23,625 nt of DNA from a bacterium (GTDB lineage: Bacteria; CG2-30-53-67; CG2-30-70-394): positions 1-23,625 of the forward strand of contig JAJRSX010000163.1 of assembly GCA_024278555.1 (NCBI GenBank), given 5' to 3'. How positions within the stretch are numbered: position 1 is the first letter of the stretch; each line of letters begins with the position of its first letter. The notes under the pieces were generated by a model. It searched no databases. It saw only the letters and a program-made list of their open reading frames with translations, and was not told where the DNA came from. The translations under genes were made by a program, and so were the position numbers. This document shows, in pieces, positions 12,865-21,911 of the stretch.

Positions 12865-15387
12865 ATGGGCCGCTGGCTCCGTTTCGCCGCCGCCCTGGCG
12901 GTGGTCGCCGCCCTCGCCGCCTGCGACAGCAGCTTCGAGCGGTACGCCCCGGCGGTGCAGCCACCCCCACGGGGCCCGGCCGACTACCGGATCTTCATCA
13001 ACTACGAGCTAGGGATGCACTGCACCGGCTTCGACTTCTCCTACTGCTGCATCCTGCCGCCGTACAACTCGATCCAGGCGCAGGTGGTGCGGGTGGGGGA
13101 GGCGCCGGTGCGCCTCGGCGCCGATCCCATGGACCCGACGGTGGTGGTGGAGCCGGACACCAAGCGCCGCTTCCGCCTCCGCTACCGCGTCGTCGACAAC
13201 AGCTTCTCCGAGTTCGCCAAGCTCCTCTACTGGGGGGCGAAGGTCGACATCGATGGCGACGGCAACGACCGCGAGAACGGCGAGACGGTGTCGAACGCGG
13301 AGTGGACCCACCTCTTTCTCTACACCGACCTCAAGGGGTCGAACCCGAAGCAGACCTCGCTGGATCGGGACAAGCAGTTCGTCGGCCTCGGCCCCCTGGC
13401 GCTGAAGCGCGACCACGGCCCCACCGGTGCCTACCTCAAGGGGGGCGATCTGGAGTGGTCGGGGGAGGTGGGCACGGTGGTCTTCACCAAGTCGCCGCTG
13501 CTGGACAACGTCCCCATCCACCTCACCAACCCGGGGGTGTGGGAGGCCCTGGGGCTGCCGCTCACGCCTCTCCTGGACAGCGAGCGCGAGGGCAAGTCGT
13601 TCCGCACCATCGTCGAGGAGGACATCCAGCCGTACCAGGTGGCGGAGGTGACCCTGGTGGACGCGGACAGCGGCGAGCCGGTGCGCGACACCCGCGGCAA
13701 GGTGGTGCGCTACACCGGCACCGAGCCCATCGACATGCCGGCCTGTCTCAACTGCCACGCCGGCCCGCGCCCCAACGCGCCGTACAAGGGGGTGTGGGCG
13801 AAGGTGGAGGCGGAGCGGAGCTACTGGCTCTCCATCGACTCGTCCCCGTGGGTGGCGGACCTGAAGGCGGCGGCGATCTCCATCCTCGCCATCCACGACG
13901 CCCGCCACGGCACCACCTTCACCGCCAATTTCCACGCCGTCTCCTCCGCCAACCGCCTCGGCCGCGACACGGTCCTCTGCCAGAAGTGCCACGCCGACAA
14001 CGTGATCGGTGTCCTCGCCGGCGGCGTCCTGGTGGAGCGTGACCACAAGCTGGTGGTGGTGGACTACGCGGACGTGGACGGCGGCTTCAAACCCGGGGCC
14101 GGGCGCGGCGCGGTGCGCGAGGTCCTCGCCCCGACCGCGGCGCAGGCCGCCGCCTACCGGCAGCGCATCGCCGCCTCCTCCCCCCTGCCGGGGCGGCCGA
14201 AGGGGCTCCTCCTGCCGCCCCTGAGTGAGGCGATCCACGCGACCCACCAGTCCCACTCGCCCCTCGCCGACGGGGTGGGGCGCAGCGGCGCCTGCCAGGC
14301 ATGTCATCCGGCCCACCGCTACGACCGCTCCCTGGCCCGCTTCCCCCTCGACCGCAACGGCCTCAACCCCTTTGCCCACGGTGATAACCGCGACGGCGCC
14401 GGCGGCTGCTACCAGGGGCGCGACGTCCACTCGAACCCGAACCGCAACATTGACGGCGCCGAGACGCCCTCGCACCTGAACGCGATCGGCCGCTGGCTCG
14501 ACACCAACGTGGCGCAGGAGAAGCGGTCCGATGGCACGGCGCGCGGCCTCTGGTGCACCAACTGCCACAGCGAGGTGTCGCGGATGCTCTACCGGACGGA
14601 CCGCCTGCGAAGCGGCCACGTCCGCCTGCCCGAGGCGGGCGACACGGTGCGCACCGCCGCCTCCCTGGCGGCGGTGGCCAAGGGGCTCGGCACGGACCCG
14701 GCCCGGCTTGCTGGGCTGCTCGACCCCATGGTGCGGGTCGATCCCACGACCCACCGCGACCGCGGTCCCACCCCCCTCCCCTGGGCGTCACGGGTAGACC
14801 GGCGCGCGCCGGAGATCGCGGTGATCGCCACCAAAGGGGGGCAGCCGGTGGTCGCGACGGATGGCGACGGCGACCCCAACGTCACCCTCGTCGACGCCAA
14901 CCCGAACCAGGCCGTGGCCCATACGGCGCAGGGTGGGGTGGCGGTCTCCTACGACGTCGCCTCCGACGGGCGTGACTACTGGCTCGCCGCCGGCGAGCCC
15001 CACTGCGCCGACTGCCACGCCCCGCCCTTTGTCGAGTCGGAGGGGGGCGGCGCCTTCCCCATCGACCAGCCCGGCAAGTACTCGCTCATGCGTTACGCCA
15101 CGGGCCATGCCGGCCTGCCGTGTCAGACCTGTCACGAGTCGATCCACGGCCTCTACCCGGTGACCCCGGACGTCGACCCCACCACCTACGGCCAGGCCGC
15201 CTCCCTCAACCCGGACGGCTCGCACGGCCCGATCCGCTGCGGCTCCTGCCACCAGCCGGTGAACGGCAACGGCGTGCCGGTGAAGTATGCGGAGCGGACC
15301 TTCCGCGACATCGACACCGGCAAGGAGGGGAGGGTGGGCGACAGCTACGACCTCGCGGTCCAGTGGATCCACGCGATGGCGCCGTAG
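12865..15387 (+). CDS. Seven-haem c-type cytochrome lipoprotein, paralogue of the 8-haem protein
   Basis: An 840-residue exported cytochrome. The N-terminus MGRWLRFAAALAVVAALAAC has a perfect lipobox (LAAC, C20), so it should be a lipoprotein. Seven CXXCH sites are at C294, C372, C477, C564, C714, C753 and C792, each aligning with one of the first seven haems of the larger cytochrome. The shared segment NYELGMHCTGFDFSYCC is at 46-62. Other shared blocks are TNPGVWEALGLPLTPLLDSE, TEPID(M/I)P before haem 1, PHCADCHAPPFVE and CHxSIHGLYPVT. It lacks the collagen-like tract, most Asp-rich loops and the C-terminal mono-haem domain, which accounts for the size difference. The gene starts directly on the TPR gene stop codon. 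Its redox partner is not visible; pairing or exchange with the 8-haem paralogue is inferred. Confidence 0.9.
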   Translation: MGRWLRFAAALAVVAALAACDSSFERYAPAVQPPPRGPADYRIFINYELGMHCTGFDFSYCCILPPYNSIQAQVVRVGEAPVRLGADPMDPTVVVEPDTKRRFRLRYRVVDNSFSEFAKLLYWGAKVDIDGDGNDRENGETVSNAEWTHLFLYTDLKGSNPKQTSLDRDKQFVGLGPLALKRDHGPTGAYLKGGDLEWSGEVGTVVFTKSPLLDNVPIHLTNPGVWEALGLPLTPLLDSEREGKSFRTIVEEDIQPYQVAEVTLVDADSGEPVRDTRGKVVRYTGTEPIDMPACLNCHAGPRPNAPYKGVWAKVEAERSYWLSIDSSPWVADLKAAAISILAIHDARHGTTFTANFHAVSSANRLGRDTVLCQKCHADNVIGVLAGGVLVERDHKLVVVDYADVDGGFKPGAGRGAVREVLAPTAAQAAAYRQRIAASSPLPGRPKGLLLPPLSEAIHATHQSHSPLADGVGRSGACQACHPAHRYDRSLARFPLDRNGLNPFAHGDNRDGAGGCYQGRDVHSNPNRNIDGAETPSHLNAIGRWLDTNVAQEKRSDGTARGLWCTNCHSEVSRMLYRTDRLRSGHVRLPEAGDTVRTAASLAAVAKGLGTDPARLAGLLDPMVRVDPTTHRDRGPTPLPWASRVDRRAPEIAVIATKGGQPVVATDGDGDPNVTLVDANPNQAVAHTAQGGVAVSYDVASDGRDYWLAAGEPHCADCHAPPFVESEGGGAFPIDQPGKYSLMRYATGHAGLPCQTCHESIHGLYPVTPDVDPTTYGQAASLNPDGSHGPIRCGSCHQPVNGNGVPVKYAERTFRDIDTGKEGRVGDSYDLAVQWIHAMAP

Positions 15388-16308: not shown

Positions 16309-17655
16309 CTACGGCTGCTTGCCCACCGCCACGACGATGAGACCGTCCGGGTCGAGGTGGGCGCGGGCGACGGCGGCGACCTGGTCGCGGGTGACCGCGG
16401 AGACCAGGGCCGGGAAGCGGCGCAGGTAGTCGAGGCCGAGGTGGTGGCGCTCCATGAAGATGAGGTAGGAGGCGATCTTCGCCGAGGTGTCGAGGCGGAG
16501 GGGGAAGGAGCCGGTGAGGTATGCCTCGGCATCGGCCACCTCCGCATCGGTGGGGCCGTCGTCGTGGAGGTGGCGTACCACCTCGCGTACCGCCGTCTCC
16601 GCCTCCTTCGCCGAGGCGTTCTTGGTGGCGAGCTGGATGGTGAAGAGGCCGCGCTCCATCGGCAGGGAGAACCATGAGCCGATGGAGTAGACGAGGCCGA
16701 GGCGCTCGCGCAGCTCGGTGGTGAGTCGCGAGCCGAAGCCGCCGCCGCCGAGGATGTGGTTCATCACCAGGGTGGCGAAGAAGTCCGGGGCGTCGCGGCG
16801 CACCCCGGCCTCGCCGAGGATCAGGGTCGTCTGGGTGAAGGGGCGATCGAGCTGGATGCGCTGGGGGTGGGTGGGCGGTGTAGGCGGGAGGGACGGGAGT
16901 GGCTCCGGCCGCGCGGCCCAGCCGGTCAGGCGCGCGTTCCACAGGGTCGCCGCCTCTTGCGCGTCGATCGCCCCGACCATGGAGACGACCATCGCCTCCG
17001 GGTGGTAGAGGCGCTGGTGGAAACGGCGACAGTCGTCGGCGGTGATCTTGGCCACCGACTCCACCGTGCCGTCGGCCGGGTGGCCGTACGGGTGGTCGCC
17101 GTATGCGGCGTGGCGGTAGGCGCGGCCGGCGACGGTGTTGGGCTCTTGCTCGCCGGCGATGAGGGCGGCGCGGGTCTCCTTCTTGATCCGCGCTACGTCG
17201 TCGTCGCGGAAGGCGGGGGTGCGCAGGAGCTCCACGATCAGGTCCAGCGCCGCCGGGAGATACCGTTTCAGCACGTGGAGGGAGAGGTGGGTCGCGTCGT
17301 GGCTGGTGGAGATGGCGAGCGCCGCCCCCATCGATTCGAGGGCCTCGGCGATCTCCTGGCCGGTGTGGTCGGTGGTCCCCTCGTCGAGGAGGTCGGCGGT
17401 GAGCGACGCCAGCCCGGGCAGCATCGCCGGGTCGCGGGCGGCGCCGGCGGCGAGGTCGATCTCCACCGCCACCACCGGCAGGTGGGGTCGGGAGAGGGTG
17501 AGGAGGGTCGCACCCGAGGGGAGGCGCCGGCGGGTGGGCAGGGGCGACAGGGTGGTCTTCGCCGCGACCGTGGCCGTGGTCGGCCGGGGGTGGGGGAGGG
17601 CGGTGCACGCGGCCACCACGACTATCGCGACAACAAGGAGAGAGAGGCGCCTCAT
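16309..17655 (-). CDS. M16-family peptidase subunit lacking the zinc motif, lipoprotein
   Basis: A 448-residue insulinase-fold protein. The signal sequence ends in VAAC (C17), a usable lipobox. The two M16 halves are recognisable: residues about 40-230, and a second half with GFGSRLTTELRERLGLVYSIGS, the Arg/Tyr substrate-contact motif of the non-catalytic chain. Where the catalytic chain has HxxEH this protein reads SLTADLLDEGTTD, so the zinc site is missing and it should be the partner subunit of an alpha/beta M16 pair. Its ATG overlaps the TGA of the catalytic gene by four bases (ATGA, 17652-17655), so the two are translationally coupled. Together they probably degrade peptides in the periplasm. 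Target peptides are unknown. Confidence 0.88.
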   Translation of the reverse strand: MRRLSLLVVAIVVVAACTALPHPRPTTATVAAKTTLSPLPTRRRLPSGATLLTLSRPHLPVVAVEIDLAAGAARDPAMLPGLASLTADLLDEGTTDHTGQEIAEALESMGAALAISTSHDATHLSLHVLKRYLPAALDLIVELLRTPAFRDDDVARIKKETRAALIAGEQEPNTVAGRAYRHAAYGDHPYGHPADGTVESVAKITADDCRRFHQRLYHPEAMVVSMVGAIDAQEAATLWNARLTGWAARPEPLPSLPPTPPTHPQRIQLDRPFTQTTLILGEAGVRRDAPDFFATLVMNHILGGGGFGSRLTTELRERLGLVYSIGSWFSLPMERGLFTIQLATKNASAKEAETAVREVVRHLHDDGPTDAEVADAEAYLTGSFPLRLDTSAKIASYLIFMERHHLGLDYLRRFPALVSAVTRDQVAAVARAHLDPDGLIVVAVGKQP

Positions 17656-19007
17656 CGTTCCACCCCCTCGCCCTGCCCCACCGTGGCCGGTGCCTTGTCC
17701 GTCTCGGGGATCAGGACCCCGAGGGTGCGGCCCTCCGGCCGCAGGTAGGTGGCGACCACCCGCTGGACGTCGGCGGCGGTGACCGCGCGGATGCGGGGTA
17801 GATAGCCTTCGAGGTCCGCCTTGGTGCGGCCGGTGGTGTAGAGGCGGCCGAGGGTCATGGCGAGGTAGAAGGGGGAGTCCTGGGCAAAGACGAAGTCGGC
17901 CTCCATCTGGGTCTTCGCCTTGGCGAGCTCGGTCGCACCGATCGGTTCGGTGGCGAGGCGCGTTACCTCGTGCTCCAGGGCTCGCTCTGCCTCCGCCGGG
18001 GTGTGGCCCGGCTGGAGGCCGGCGTAGAGGGTGAAGAGGGATGGGTCCTCGGCGTCGCCGTTGTAGCCGGCGCCGGCGTAGAGGCAGAGGCGCCGGCGCT
18101 CTACCAGCTCGCGGGTGAGGCGGGCGCTCTTGCCGCCGGCGAGCACCTGGGCGGCGACTTCCAGGGCGGGGCCGTCGGGGTGGTCGAAGGTGGGGGTGTG
18201 GTAGGCGGCGTAAAGGAAGGGGAGCTTCGCCGGCCGCCGGAGGGTGACGCGCCGTTCGCCCCGCTGGGGCGGCTCACCGGCGGTCCGGCGCGGCGGCGAC
18301 GGCGGCGCGTGGATCCGTCCGAAGGTGCGCTCCACCTCGGGGAGAAGGGCGGCGGTGTCGAAGTCGCCCACCACCACCAGGGTGGCGTTGTCCGGCCGGT
18401 AGTACCGCTCGTAGAAGTCGCGCAGGTCATCGACGGTGAGGCGGTCGAGGTCCTCCATCCAGCCGATCACCGGCCTGCCGTACGGGTGGGCGACAAAGGC
18501 GGCGGCGCGGACCTGCTCCACCAGGGCCGATTCCGGGTTGTCCTCGGTGCGCATCCGTCGCTCCTCCTTTACCACCTGCCGCTCGCGGTCGAACTCGGTC
18601 TCGGTGAGGAGGATGTTGCGCATCCGGTCCGCTTCCAGCTCCAGCCCGAGGGTGAGGCGGTCGGCGGCAAACTTCTCGTAGTAGGCGGTGTAGTCGAAGC
18701 TCGTGAAGGCGTTGTCGTCCCCCCCCGCCTTCGCCACCAGGCGGGAGAAGATGCCGGGGCCGTGGGCGGCGGTGCCGTTGAACATGTTGTGCTCGAGTAG
18801 GTGGGCGAGGCCGGTGCGCCCGGCCACCTCGTCCTTCGACCCCACGTGGTACCAGATCTGCACCACCGCCACCGGCGCGGCGTGCTCCTCCAGGGTGACG
18901 ACGTTGAGGCCGTTGGCGAGCCGGTGGACCGCCACCGGCAGGTGGATCTCCTGGGCGGTGGCAGGGAGGGCGGTGAAGAGGAGGAGGGCAACGAGAAGAC
19001 GCGACAT
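17652..19007 (-). CDS. M16-family zinc metallopeptidase, catalytic subunit
   Basis: A 451-residue exported peptidase. The signal peptide MSRLLVALLLFTALPATA is followed by QEIHLPV. The inverted zinc motif HLLEH is at 69-73, with the third metal ligand in VVKEERRMR (E148/E149), about 76 residues on, exactly as in the family. The conserved N/SFDYTAYYE-type segment is at 100-111 (AFTSFDYTAYYE). The frame is open well upstream of 19007, but that part is low-complexity and overlaps the BIME element, so the ATG giving a signal peptide is chosen. It precedes and overlaps the non-catalytic subunit gene. Proteins of this kind act as heterodimers in the periplasm and clear short peptides. The residues after the first domain match the usual length, with no sign of truncation. 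Confidence 0.9.
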   Translation of the reverse strand: MSRLLVALLLFTALPATAQEIHLPVAVHRLANGLNVVTLEEHAAPVAVVQIWYHVGSKDEVAGRTGLAHLLEHNMFNGTAAHGPGIFSRLVAKAGGDDNAFTSFDYTAYYEKFAADRLTLGLELEADRMRNILLTETEFDRERQVVKEERRMRTEDNPESALVEQVRAAAFVAHPYGRPVIGWMEDLDRLTVDDLRDFYERYYRPDNATLVVVGDFDTAALLPEVERTFGRIHAPPSPPRRTAGEPPQRGERRVTLRRPAKLPFLYAAYHTPTFDHPDGPALEVAAQVLAGGKSARLTRELVERRRLCLYAGAGYNGDAEDPSLFTLYAGLQPGHTPAEAERALEHEVTRLATEPIGATELAKAKTQMEADFVFAQDSPFYLAMTLGRLYTTGRTKADLEGYLPRIRAVTAADVQRVVATYLRPEGRTLGVLIPETDKAPATVGQGEGVER

Positions 19008-19071
19008 GGGCGCGGAGGATCGCAGAGGCGGCGTGGCTCGGGAAGGCGTGGGGTGGTCGAGGATTCCCCCG

Positions 19072-19156
19072 GTAGGAGGGGGTTGCACCCCCGATCCCGG
19101 CCCTTGGGGCCGGCCGGCGCCGAGGGCGCCGGATCGCGGGTACAACCCGCTCCTAC
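19072..19156. repeat. BIME-like REP pair, complete copy 2
   Basis: Same 85-bp architecture as 15449-15533, from GTAGGAG to CTCCTAC, with about five differences. Three of these are in the loop of the second central palindrome (GAG in place of ACC). It lies between the M16 catalytic gene start and the AnmK stop, so it is in the AnmK 3' region and could end or stabilise that transcript. Confidence 0.85.
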
Positions 19157-19210
19157 CTTTCGTTATGGCCATGGCGTCGTGCGGTGTGGCCTCTGCCGGA
19201 CGGCAATCGA

Positions 19211-20338
19211 TCAGCCCAACCGGTCGAGGAGCTGCCGGTAGCCGCGGCCCGGCTGGATCTCGCCGAGGATCGGGAGGCCGGGGCCGCCGGTGATCGGCTC
19301 CATGGGCTGCCCCGCGCCGGAGAGGCAGGCGAGGCCGAGGTGGGCGAAGCCGATCGCCTCCACCGCGTCCGGGTCGACGCCGTGGGCGTCGGTCGTCTCC
19401 ACCGGCAGCGGCGCCACCGCCGCGGTGATCTCCCGGACCAGGGTGCGGTTGTGGCTGCCGCCGCCGCACAGGAGGAGCCGTTGCCAGCCGCCCTCCGGGG
19501 TGGGGGCGCGGCGGAGGTGGTCGGCGACCATCGCGGCGATGAAACTACAGGCGGTGGCCAGGGTGTCGCCGCCGGTGCCACCGGCGGCGGCACAGTCGTC
19601 GGCGAAGGTGTTGGCAAAGGCGGTGCCGAAGAGCTCCCGGCCGGTGGACTTGGGCGGCGGCTGGCGGAGGAAGGGGTGGCCGAGGTGTGCCGTGACCACC
19701 GGGTCGATGCAGGCGCCGGTGGCGGCGAGGCGGCCGTCGCGGTCGAAGCCGGCCTCGCCGGTGGCGCGTTGGTAGAGGGGGTCGAGGAGGAGGTTGCATG
19801 GGCCGAGGTCATGGCCGCGCGGCTCCCCGCCGGCGGGCAGCTCGCTCAGGTTGGCGATGCCGCCGAGGTTGAGGAGCAGCCGCCCCTCCACCGCGCTGCC
19901 AAAGAGGTGGCGGTGGAAGAGGGGGGCCAGCGGCGCCCCCTGGCCGCCGGCGGCGACGTCGGCGTTGCGGAAGCGGCCTACCGCGGTGCAGCCGAGGCCA
20001 CGGGCGAGGGTGGCGAGGTCGCCGAGCTGCACCGAGTAGCCGCGCTCCGGCCGGTGGGCGGCGGTGACGCCGTGGGCGGCGACCAGGTCGGGGCGATCCC
20101 GCACCCCGGAGCGGCGCACCCCATCGACAAACCAGCGCGCCACCGCCACCTCGGCCGCGGCGACCTCCGCCACCGTGGTGGGTTCCCCGGCGAGGAGCGG
20201 CGCGAGCCGCCGCCGGAGGGCGGGCCAGAGGGGATAGGTGGTGAAGCGGACCGTCCGGCCACCACGCACCCACGCCACGTCGGCGCCATCCAGCGAGGTG
20301 CCGCACATGAGCCCGACCACGGTGATCTCTTGTGCCAT
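19211..20338 (-). CDS. anmK: Anhydro-N-acetylmuramic acid kinase
   Basis: A 375-residue cytoplasmic sugar kinase of the ASKHA fold. AnmK opens the anhydro bond and phosphorylates 1,6-anhydro-MurNAc to MurNAc-6-phosphate during murein recycling. The N-terminal signature GLMCGTSLDGAD (9-20) is the ATP-binding phosphate loop, with Cys where Ser is usual. Further family motifs are LLLNLGGIANLSEL, DLGPCNLLLDPL (Cys where Gly is usual) and LLCGGGSHNRTL near residue 275. Length is family-typical. The ATG at 20338 has AAGG eight bases upstream. It is transcribed away from the selenoprotein gene. MurQ or other recycling genes are not adjacent; the only related gene here is the LD-carboxypeptidase. Confidence 0.92.
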   Translation of the reverse strand: MAQEITVVGLMCGTSLDGADVAWVRGGRTVRFTTYPLWPALRRRLAPLLAGEPTTVAEVAAAEVAVARWFVDGVRRSGVRDRPDLVAAHGVTAAHRPERGYSVQLGDLATLARGLGCTAVGRFRNADVAAGGQGAPLAPLFHRHLFGSAVEGRLLLNLGGIANLSELPAGGEPRGHDLGPCNLLLDPLYQRATGEAGFDRDGRLAATGACIDPVVTAHLGHPFLRQPPPKSTGRELFGTAFANTFADDCAAAGGTGGDTLATACSFIAAMVADHLRRAPTPEGGWQRLLLCGGGSHNRTLVREITAAVAPLPVETTDAHGVDPDAVEAIGFAHLGLACLSGAGQPMEPITGGPGLPILGEIQPGRGYRQLLDRLG

Positions 20339-20620: not shown

Positions 20621-21355
20621 ATGCCCCGCCTCAGCGACCTCCCCCTCTCCCTGCGTGCCACCCTGAAGCTCTACCGGTGGCGGCGGTTGGGGAACCGGGC
20701 GTGGGCGCGTCTGGCGCGGCCGCTCGGCGAGTGTCGGGTGGCGATCTGCTCGACCGCCGGCATGGTGGAGCCCGGCCAGCCCCCCTATGACAGCTCGGTG
20801 AAGGGGGGCGACTTCTCCTATCGGGTGATCGACGGGGAGACGGCGGTGGCGTCGCTGATCGATAGCCACCGCAGCGCCGCCTACGACCACGCCGGCATCG
20901 AGCGCGACGCAAACCTCGCCTTCCCCCTCGATCGCCTCCGAGAGCTGGCCGCCGCCGGTCGCATCGGTTCGGTGGCGCCGCGCCACCTCTCCTTCATGGG
21001 GTCGATCACCGCCCCCAACCGGCTGCTGCGCCGGAGCGCGCCGGAGGCGGCGGCGCTGCTGGTGGCGGACCAGGTGGACATTGTCCTGCTGGTCCCCGTC
21101 TGACCCTTTTGCCATCAGACGGTCGGTCTGATTCAGGGGGTGCTGGAGGAGCGCGGGATCGTCACCTGCTCGATTACCGCCCTGCCGGAGATCACCGCGA
21201 AGGTGGCGCCGCCGCGCACCCTCGCGGTGCCGTACCCCCTCGGCTACCCGCTCGGGGCGCCCGGCGACCCGGGGCTCCAGAGTCGGATCATCGAGGCCGC
21301 TCTCACCCTCTGCGAGGGCGAACCGGCGACCGAGCCGGTCGCCTTTGTCGCGTGA
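20621..21355 (+). CDS. Selenoprotein of the glycine/betaine/proline reductase B type (in-frame UGA = Sec161)
   Basis: A 244-residue protein if the UGA at 21101-21103 is read as selenocysteine. The first part includes AICSTAGMVEPGQPPYD (41-57), GGDFSYRVI, RHLSFMGSI and a final VDIVLLVPV before the UGA. In the same frame the sequence goes on PFCHQTVGLIQGVLEERG, then a conserved-looking PYPLGYPLGAPGDP, to TGA at 21353. Both halves read as one GrdB/PrdB-like fold, and the Sec falls in a UxxC redox pair (Sec161, Cys164). The usual cysteine version of this small family has a CPxCHQT-like motif there. A SECIS hairpin follows the UGA (21104-21138). These relatives reduce or bind small substrates through a redox-active selenol. 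The substrate here is unknown, and no grdA, grdE or thioredoxin genes lie nearby. The start ATG has no strong Shine-Dalgarno. Confidence 0.85.
21101..21140 (+). promoter_or_regulatory. Bacterial SECIS element after the in-frame UGA
   Basis: UGA is at 21101-21103. ATCAGAC (21114-21120) pairs perfectly with GTCTGAT (21126-21132) around the loop GGTCG (21121-21125). CCCT (21104-21107) can pair with AGGG (21135-21138) as a lower stem across an internal loop. The apical GGUC matches the loop of the E. coli fdhF SECIS bound by SelB. The 17 bases between UGA and loop are close to the 18 of fdhF. Confidence 0.85.
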
Positions 21356-21401: not shown

Positions 21402-21911
21402 TTACGCGGCCTTCACCTCGATGTGGTGCCGCTCCTTCCGCGCCTGCTCGCTCTTCGGCAGGGTGACGGTGAGGACGCCGCGCTTGAAGGTGGCGGTGGC
21501 ACCCTCATCCTTTACCTCACAGGGGAGCTGCAGGGTGCGCCGGAAGGAGCCGAAGCTACGCTCGGTGCGGACGTAGTCCTTCTCCTTGGTCTCCCGCTCC
21601 ATCTGCTTCTCCCCCTTGAGGGTGAGGAGGTCGCCGGCGACGGAGATGTCGATATCCTTCTCCTCCATGCCGGGGAGCTCGGCGGTAACCACCACCGTCT
21701 CGTCGTCTTCGCTCACGTCCACATGGGGCAGATACCCCGCGCCGGCAGGGGTGAAGCGCTCCATCGGCCACCACCCCTCGACGCTGCGGAAGAAGTCGTC
21801 AAACAGGTGGTCCATCTCATCGCGCAGGGCGGCGAAGGGAGAGGCCTCTTCGCGCCGTACCGCGAGTGGACGGGTGGTGTGACGTCGTGGGATCAGATCA
21901 CGAAGTGCCAT
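21402..21911 (-). CDS. Hsp20 small heat-shock protein (third of three)
   Basis: A 169-residue ATP-independent chaperone that holds unfolding proteins. An N-terminal arm (1-60: MALRDLIPRRHTTRPLAVRR, then FAALRDEMDHLFDDFF, the classic amphipathic helix) is followed by an alpha-crystallin domain (about 62-155), with LPHVDVSEDDE, AELPGMEEKDIDI, and the hallmark RGVLTVTLPK. The C-terminal IEV in HHIEVKAA is the IxI/V anchor used for oligomer assembly. A perfect AAGGAGGT lies just upstream of the ATG. It is the last gene of a three-gene minus-strand set, 44 bases after the middle gene. The strong ribosome site suggests it may be the most highly made of the three. Confidence 0.95.
   Translation of the reverse strand: MALRDLIPRRHTTRPLAVRREEASPFAALRDEMDHLFDDFFRSVEGWWPMERFTPAGAGYLPHVDVSEDDETVVVTAELPGMEEKDIDISVAGDLLTLKGEKQMERETKEKDYVRTERSFGSFRRTLQLPCEVKDEGATATFKRGVLTVTLPKSEQARKERHHIEVKAA

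Follow-up and report, generated by a model that had tools for sequence, protein, structure and literature searches.

The window analysed here, a stretch of DNA of 23,625 nucleotides taken as a whole, carries a gene whose product, judged by sequence, is a selenoprotein of 244 residues that belongs to the PrdB/GrdB superfamily. The explanation that best fits the evidence, and which we hold to be probable, is that this protein is a selenol/thiol reductase containing Sec161 that works independently of PrdA and is not a D-proline reductase. PrdB-type selenoproteins with a UxxC motif were already known outside the clostridia, and what is added here is the systematic lack of PrdA, together with a separate clade and its motif. 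For the window itself the outcome is an annotation correction, in which a single gene of 244 codons takes the place of a truncated one of 160. The positions of the open reading frame and UGA given in the original prediction were exact (Table 1).

Table 1. Features of the selenoprotein locus and its immediate neighbours (window coordinates).
Feature	Position	Strand	Evidence and remarks
PrdB-like selenoprotein gene	20621..21355	+	244 residues with Sec161; TIGR04483 match across the UGA; TGA in 82/83 homologues
In-frame UGA, read as Sec161, first residue of UxxC (U-P-F-C)	21101..21103	+	Conservation, hairpin, Sec machinery in genome
Bacterial SECIS-type hairpin	21114..21132	+	7-bp stem, loop GGUCG with invariant G-U at 21122-21123
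Cys164 codon, putative resolving partner of Sec161; begins helix 164-177	21110..21112	+	Invariant in 41-row alignment; AlphaFold model
AnmK (anhydro-N-acetylmuramic acid kinase), upstream, divergent, outside the system	19211..20338	-	PF03702, 258 bits
Hsp20 small heat-shock protein, downstream, convergent, outside the system	21402..21911	-	PF00011, 78 bits

The frame opens with an ATG at 20621 and ends at a TGA at 21353-21355, and readthrough of the internal TGA yields a product of 244 residues that includes ...LLVPV-U-PFCHQTVGLIQ... The gene lies outside any prd operon and stands alone between the anmK and hsp20 genes; no neighbour is conserved across phyla, synteny being local to the Thermoanaerobaculia and their relatives, and the context therefore indicates no substrate. 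Elsewhere in the window there is a multihaem c-type cytochrome of 840 residues (12865-15387), adjoining a TPR protein and a PPIC rotamase, and a pair of neighbouring M16 (insulinase-type) peptidase genes (16309-19469, minus strand).

The pattern of an internal UGA followed by a hairpin is not rare in this window, which is about 70% GC: 42 TGA codons have open frames of 60 codons or more both before and after them, and three of these are also followed by a 7-bp hairpin at much the same spacing, so that the pattern is unconvincing by itself and comparative evidence has to decide. This was obtained by scanning 84,980 species, each represented by one genome, with residue 161 masked as X so that the search had no bias towards TGA; 472 relatives were recovered and 80 kept, which with the window and two relatives from its own phylum make 83 loci. 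The codon for residue 161 is TGA in all but one of these, across many phyla. The exception, in a member of the Nitrospinota (L091:2354-2941), has TCA, encoding Ser; SelA is still present in its genome, and the change may represent a loss of Sec. Within the window's own phylum, five of eight genomes examined have a match and every match contains one TGA, while a family member elsewhere (G658:C91:14938-15615) has two TGA codons within the match and possibly two Sec residues.

The sequence beyond the TGA is conserved among the homologues, and the window's clade showed no case of a non-redox residue at 161 followed by loss of conservation. Compared with the protein of the genus mate, amino acid identity is 80% after the TGA and 75% before it, and dN is 0.12 against a dS of 0.41 (dN/dS about 0.29), indicating that selection continues past the TGA.

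The hairpin, which begins 11 nt after the UGA and consists of a fully Watson-Crick 7-bp stem (ATCAGAC with GTCTGAT) closing the loop GGTCG, is conserved along with the codon. Six or seven of the seven stem pairs are kept in all 73 distinct TGA-containing sequences, a degree of pairing that other codons of the same genes reach in 1.6% of cases, and the G-U of the loop is invariant in the same set. Compensatory switching was found at the pair 21119/21127, which joins the third base of a Gly or Ser codon to the first base of a Thr, Ser or Ala codon and occurs as A-T, T-A, G-C or a G-T wobble; it is paired in 73/73 sequences, where permutation gave a mean of 35 and a maximum of 53. Among 16 scorable relatives without TGA (L162-L183), the number of pairs formed, out of seven, is only three to five in 15 and six in the remaining one (L164). 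A scan of the window with Rfam gave no match, which we do not take as evidence against a SECIS element.

The machinery for selenocysteine is complete in the genome of the window, with SelB at 326 bits, SelA at 541 bits, tRNA-Sec at 77 bits and SelD at 357 bits. The selD gene (L129, G000:C210:5886-6809) has one in-frame TGA, and SelD is probably a selenoprotein itself. SelA was found in all 41 carrier genomes tested, above the cut-off in 39. The features expected of a bacterial selenoprotein, namely a conserved UGA codon with Cys forms elsewhere, a downstream hairpin with an unpaired loop G, and SelA, SelB, SelC and SelD, are thus found together, and four independent lines of evidence (TGA in the homologues, selection past it, a covarying hairpin and the sel machinery) lead us to read the UGA at residue 161 as selenocysteine. 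In this the original prediction of a selenoprotein behind an in-frame UGA, with a UxxC pair and a SECIS-like hairpin, is borne out; its description of the selenoprotein as hidden is not, as proteins of this kind have been counted as PrdB in ocean surveys since 2005 and an NCBI product name, given to Cys-containing members, exists for the wider family.

The membership of the superfamily follows from profile matches. The Pfam GRDB model (PF07355) matches residues 33-158 with its C-terminal part only, at 41 bits against a gathering score of 22, and the best NCBIfam match is the PrdB model TIGR04483 (144.8 bits, E 2.7e-42), which spans residues 26-231 and so runs across the UGA; the GrdB models, at 41-50 bits, fall far below it. 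An alignment of 41 members matches the same five families throughout, with PrdB again giving the best E-value. The predicted relationship to GrdB and PrdB therefore stands, whereas the peculiarity that had been seen in a small stand-alone protein of this type does not, since authentic PrdB is itself a UxxC selenoprotein of about 240 residues.

The AlphaFold model (mean pLDDT 96.1, pTM 0.93) predicts one compact alpha/beta domain, in which the strand 154-158 leads to Sec161, a helix starts at Cys164 and runs to residue 177, and the chain then continues through more strands and helices, so that a product ending at residue 160 would be without a third of a single domain. The redox pair suggested for Sec161 and Cys164 gains from the invariance of Cys164 and from relatives in which Cys replaces Sec. 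A sequence search of the PDB found no relative, and Foldseek and VIA-align returned only background-level matches (best Foldseek E 0.014), for which reason we claim no solved relative and draw no function from the fold. The best Z, 8.6 to microcystinase C, lies near the value that models with no clear match usually reach, and microcystinase C was rejected as a fold relative.

The Cys forms looked for at residue 161 occur among more distant relatives. In the Acidobacteriota, 105 of 396 genomes have a family match when Cys and Ser paralogues are included; every match above 226 bits contains TGA, and many of those between 170 and 226 bits do not. The low-scoring relatives that were read have Cys/Cys, Ser/Cys, Cys/Ser, or Glu or Asp/Ser at positions 161 and 164. 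CSVC occupies the UPxC site in L172 and CPxC in L178, L182 and L183, the last two being plasmid genes; the plasmid Cys forms adjoin unrelated genes. Distant stand-alone relatives with Ser at 161 (PASRLC; L167, L168, L173 and L179-L181) and with Glu or Asp (PGEVLSHQ, PGDALSHH; L162, L163, L174 and L175) were also seen. The sequence after position 161 is conserved in all of the distant relatives read. As far as these sequences can tell, the Ser, Glu and Asp relatives have kept the remaining sequence but lost the redox pair in part or in full, and the superfamily is not exclusively redox. A further arrangement was noted in Blastocatellia and related Acidobacteriota (L103 and L104, in genomes G037 and G038), where a grd-type operon combines an alpha subunit resembling GrdG/GrdE with two TGA-containing genes resembling GrdB/GrdF, whose motifs are UGTC and UATC.

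Considering how such a protein might act, SelB with Sec-tRNA-Sec would recognise the hairpin downstream of the UGA and insert Sec at position 161, as the conserved signal and the machinery suggest. Sec161, which follows a central strand, and Cys164, with which the next helix opens, would form a selenol/thiol redox pair, in which by analogy with PrdB and GrdB the selenolate would attack an electrophilic substrate, Cys164 would resolve the selenoether or selenenyl adduct to give an Se-S bond, and a cellular dithiol, for example thioredoxin, would reduce that bond. As PrdA is missing from the genome and the gene is not part of a prd operon, the protein would act without a pyruvoyl partner, the substrate being activated in another way, and it would not be a D-proline reductase. 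That it works without any partner subunit is something we infer, and another locus of the genome may encode a partner unrelated to PrdA. The candidate substrates are small carbonyl, amino or halo compounds, or a peroxide, among which we weakly favour a small organic electrophile over a peroxide. The original prediction had assigned neither substrate nor redox partner, a position that is strengthened by the lack of PrdA.

An alternative that we regard as possible but unlikely is that the protein is an antioxidant-type thiol/selenol peroxidase or disulfide reductase, which does not act on a C-N, C-S or C-halogen bond. A UxxC between a strand and a helix, as placed by the model, is the geometry of general redox motifs, and the family is present in lineages not known as amino-acid fermenters, such as Acidobacteriota, Gemmatimonadota and Neomarinimicrobiota. 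However, the characterised members of the superfamily, GrdB and PrdB, are proposed to form carbon-selenium intermediates, according to the mechanisms reviewed in PMC10298544, and the motifs GDxSxR, DxN and HxxFMG, which are conserved with PrdB outside the redox pair, suggest a substrate site.

That the protein instead belongs as PrdB to a genuine D-proline reductase, working with PrdA to convert D-proline to 5-aminovalerate, is very improbable and largely refuted, even though PrdB (TIGR04483) is the best curated family match and published surveys name such genes proline reductase. The score does not reach half of the 300 bits that the PrdB model sets as its cut-off. PrdA, the pyruvoyl subunit, gave no match in the window's genome, which is estimated to be 100% complete, and none above the cut-off in the 40 other carriers; most carriers are MAGs, in which a single absence is weak, but absence from 41/41 is not. 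The PrdA model recovered its positive control, 16/398 Bacillota at 789-1009 bits, and is sensitive enough to detect the paralogous grd alpha subunits. Weak PrdA matches did occur in three carriers, and the one that was read (L103) is such a grd-type alpha subunit.

Phylogeny points the same way. Using the family HMM, 18 PrdB domains beside or fused to PrdA were gathered, all 18 being found; they have AGUGTCHRS-type motifs (17 with Sec, one with Cys) and a hairpin unlike that of the window. In two loci, L125 and L126, PrdB follows a PrdA-like part without N-terminal region as a fusion within a single frame of about 650 residues. In a maximum-likelihood tree, the root of which is not fixed and which therefore gives no order of age between the two PrdB forms, the PrdA-linked PrdBs group in a separate clade (100/100), and the window protein falls within another clade of 51 sequences (97/100) from Acidobacteriota, Gemmatimonadota, Myxococcota, Planctomycetota, Neomarinimicrobiota and others; a few UPxC proteins from Nitrospinota and Bacillota lie nearer to PrdB. 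As for the TIGR04483 equivalog, the window protein scores below 300 bits, has no PrdA and lies outside the PrdA-linked clade, and it fits the stand-alone UPxC PrdB-like clade in its UPxCxQ motif (compared with UGTCHRS), in a SECIS hairpin in the same register and in the lack of PrdA. This absence, the separate clade and the different motif make the label 'proline reductase' doubtful, and on sequence grounds the window protein is most likely not a D-proline reductase.

It is highly improbable that the protein serves glycine, sarcosine or betaine reductase as a subunit of the GrdB/GrdF/GrdH type, as the above-threshold Pfam GRDB match could be taken to mean: the N-terminal part of GrdB, about 220 residues, is missing, the match beginning at profile position 220, TIGR01918 scores 44.4 bits against a cut-off of 65.45, and the PrdA model, able as it is to detect alpha subunits of this kind, finds nothing in the genome. 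Least probable of all, with hardly any chance, is that the UGA is a genuine stop, giving a 160-residue product followed by a relic or a separate open reading frame, for although TGAs between long open frames are common in this GC-rich window, the codon and the protein beyond it are conserved, the hairpin covaries, the Sec machinery is complete and the single compact predicted fold requires the C-terminal part.

If the PrdB-family UxxC proteins that are so frequent in ocean metagenomes do not reduce D-proline, then their name misleads, and why bacteria other than amino-acid fermenters invest selenium in them becomes a testable question. The usual functional name, 'proline reductase', is probably wrong for the window's selenoprotein. 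On balance we lean towards the wider view that the PrdB-like clade, spread across many phyla and including the 'proline reductase' counted in the oceans, acts without PrdA as a selenoenzyme on some other substrate still to be discovered, and that a common environmental selenoprotein has been misnamed. In the open-access literature we found no discussion of a PrdB-like family without PrdA.

Among known systems, GrdB, GrdF and GrdH (PF07355) have a C-terminal half homologous to the window protein, with Sec at the equivalent place, but are about 435 residues long with an extra N-terminal part, contain UxxCxxC, and work with a pyruvoyl alpha subunit and GrdA/GrdC. The NCBI 'glycine/sarcosine/betaine reductase selenoprotein B family protein', for example of Haematobacter and Roseomonas plasmids, is likewise stand-alone and homologous over 89% of the query, at about 38% identity, but it has CPxC at the UPxC site, with Cys for Sec, and no hairpin. 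PrdB, the 26-kDa subunit of D-proline reductase, resembles the window protein in being a single domain of about 240 residues with the UxxC Sec in the same place, and the two share the GDxSxR, DxN..FP and HxxFMG motifs; PrdB, however, adjoins PrdA, has AGUGTCHRS, another hairpin and a separate clade, whereas in the window protein the motif reads VPVUPFCHQT and PrdA is missing from the genome. PrdB-type selenoproteins have also been described in Anaeromyxobacter and Geobacter (PMC1794560). Finally, the sequences named 'proline reductase PrdB' in the Sargasso Sea data of 2005 (42 UxxC selenoproteins; PMC1088965) and in the GOS survey of 2008 (235 with Sec and 110 with Cys; PMC2398784), which are among the most frequent selenoproteins of ocean metagenomes, are PrdB-family UxxC selenoproteins as well; marine Neomarinimicrobiota loci (L067-L069) lie within the window's clade, and the ocean sequences likely belong there too.
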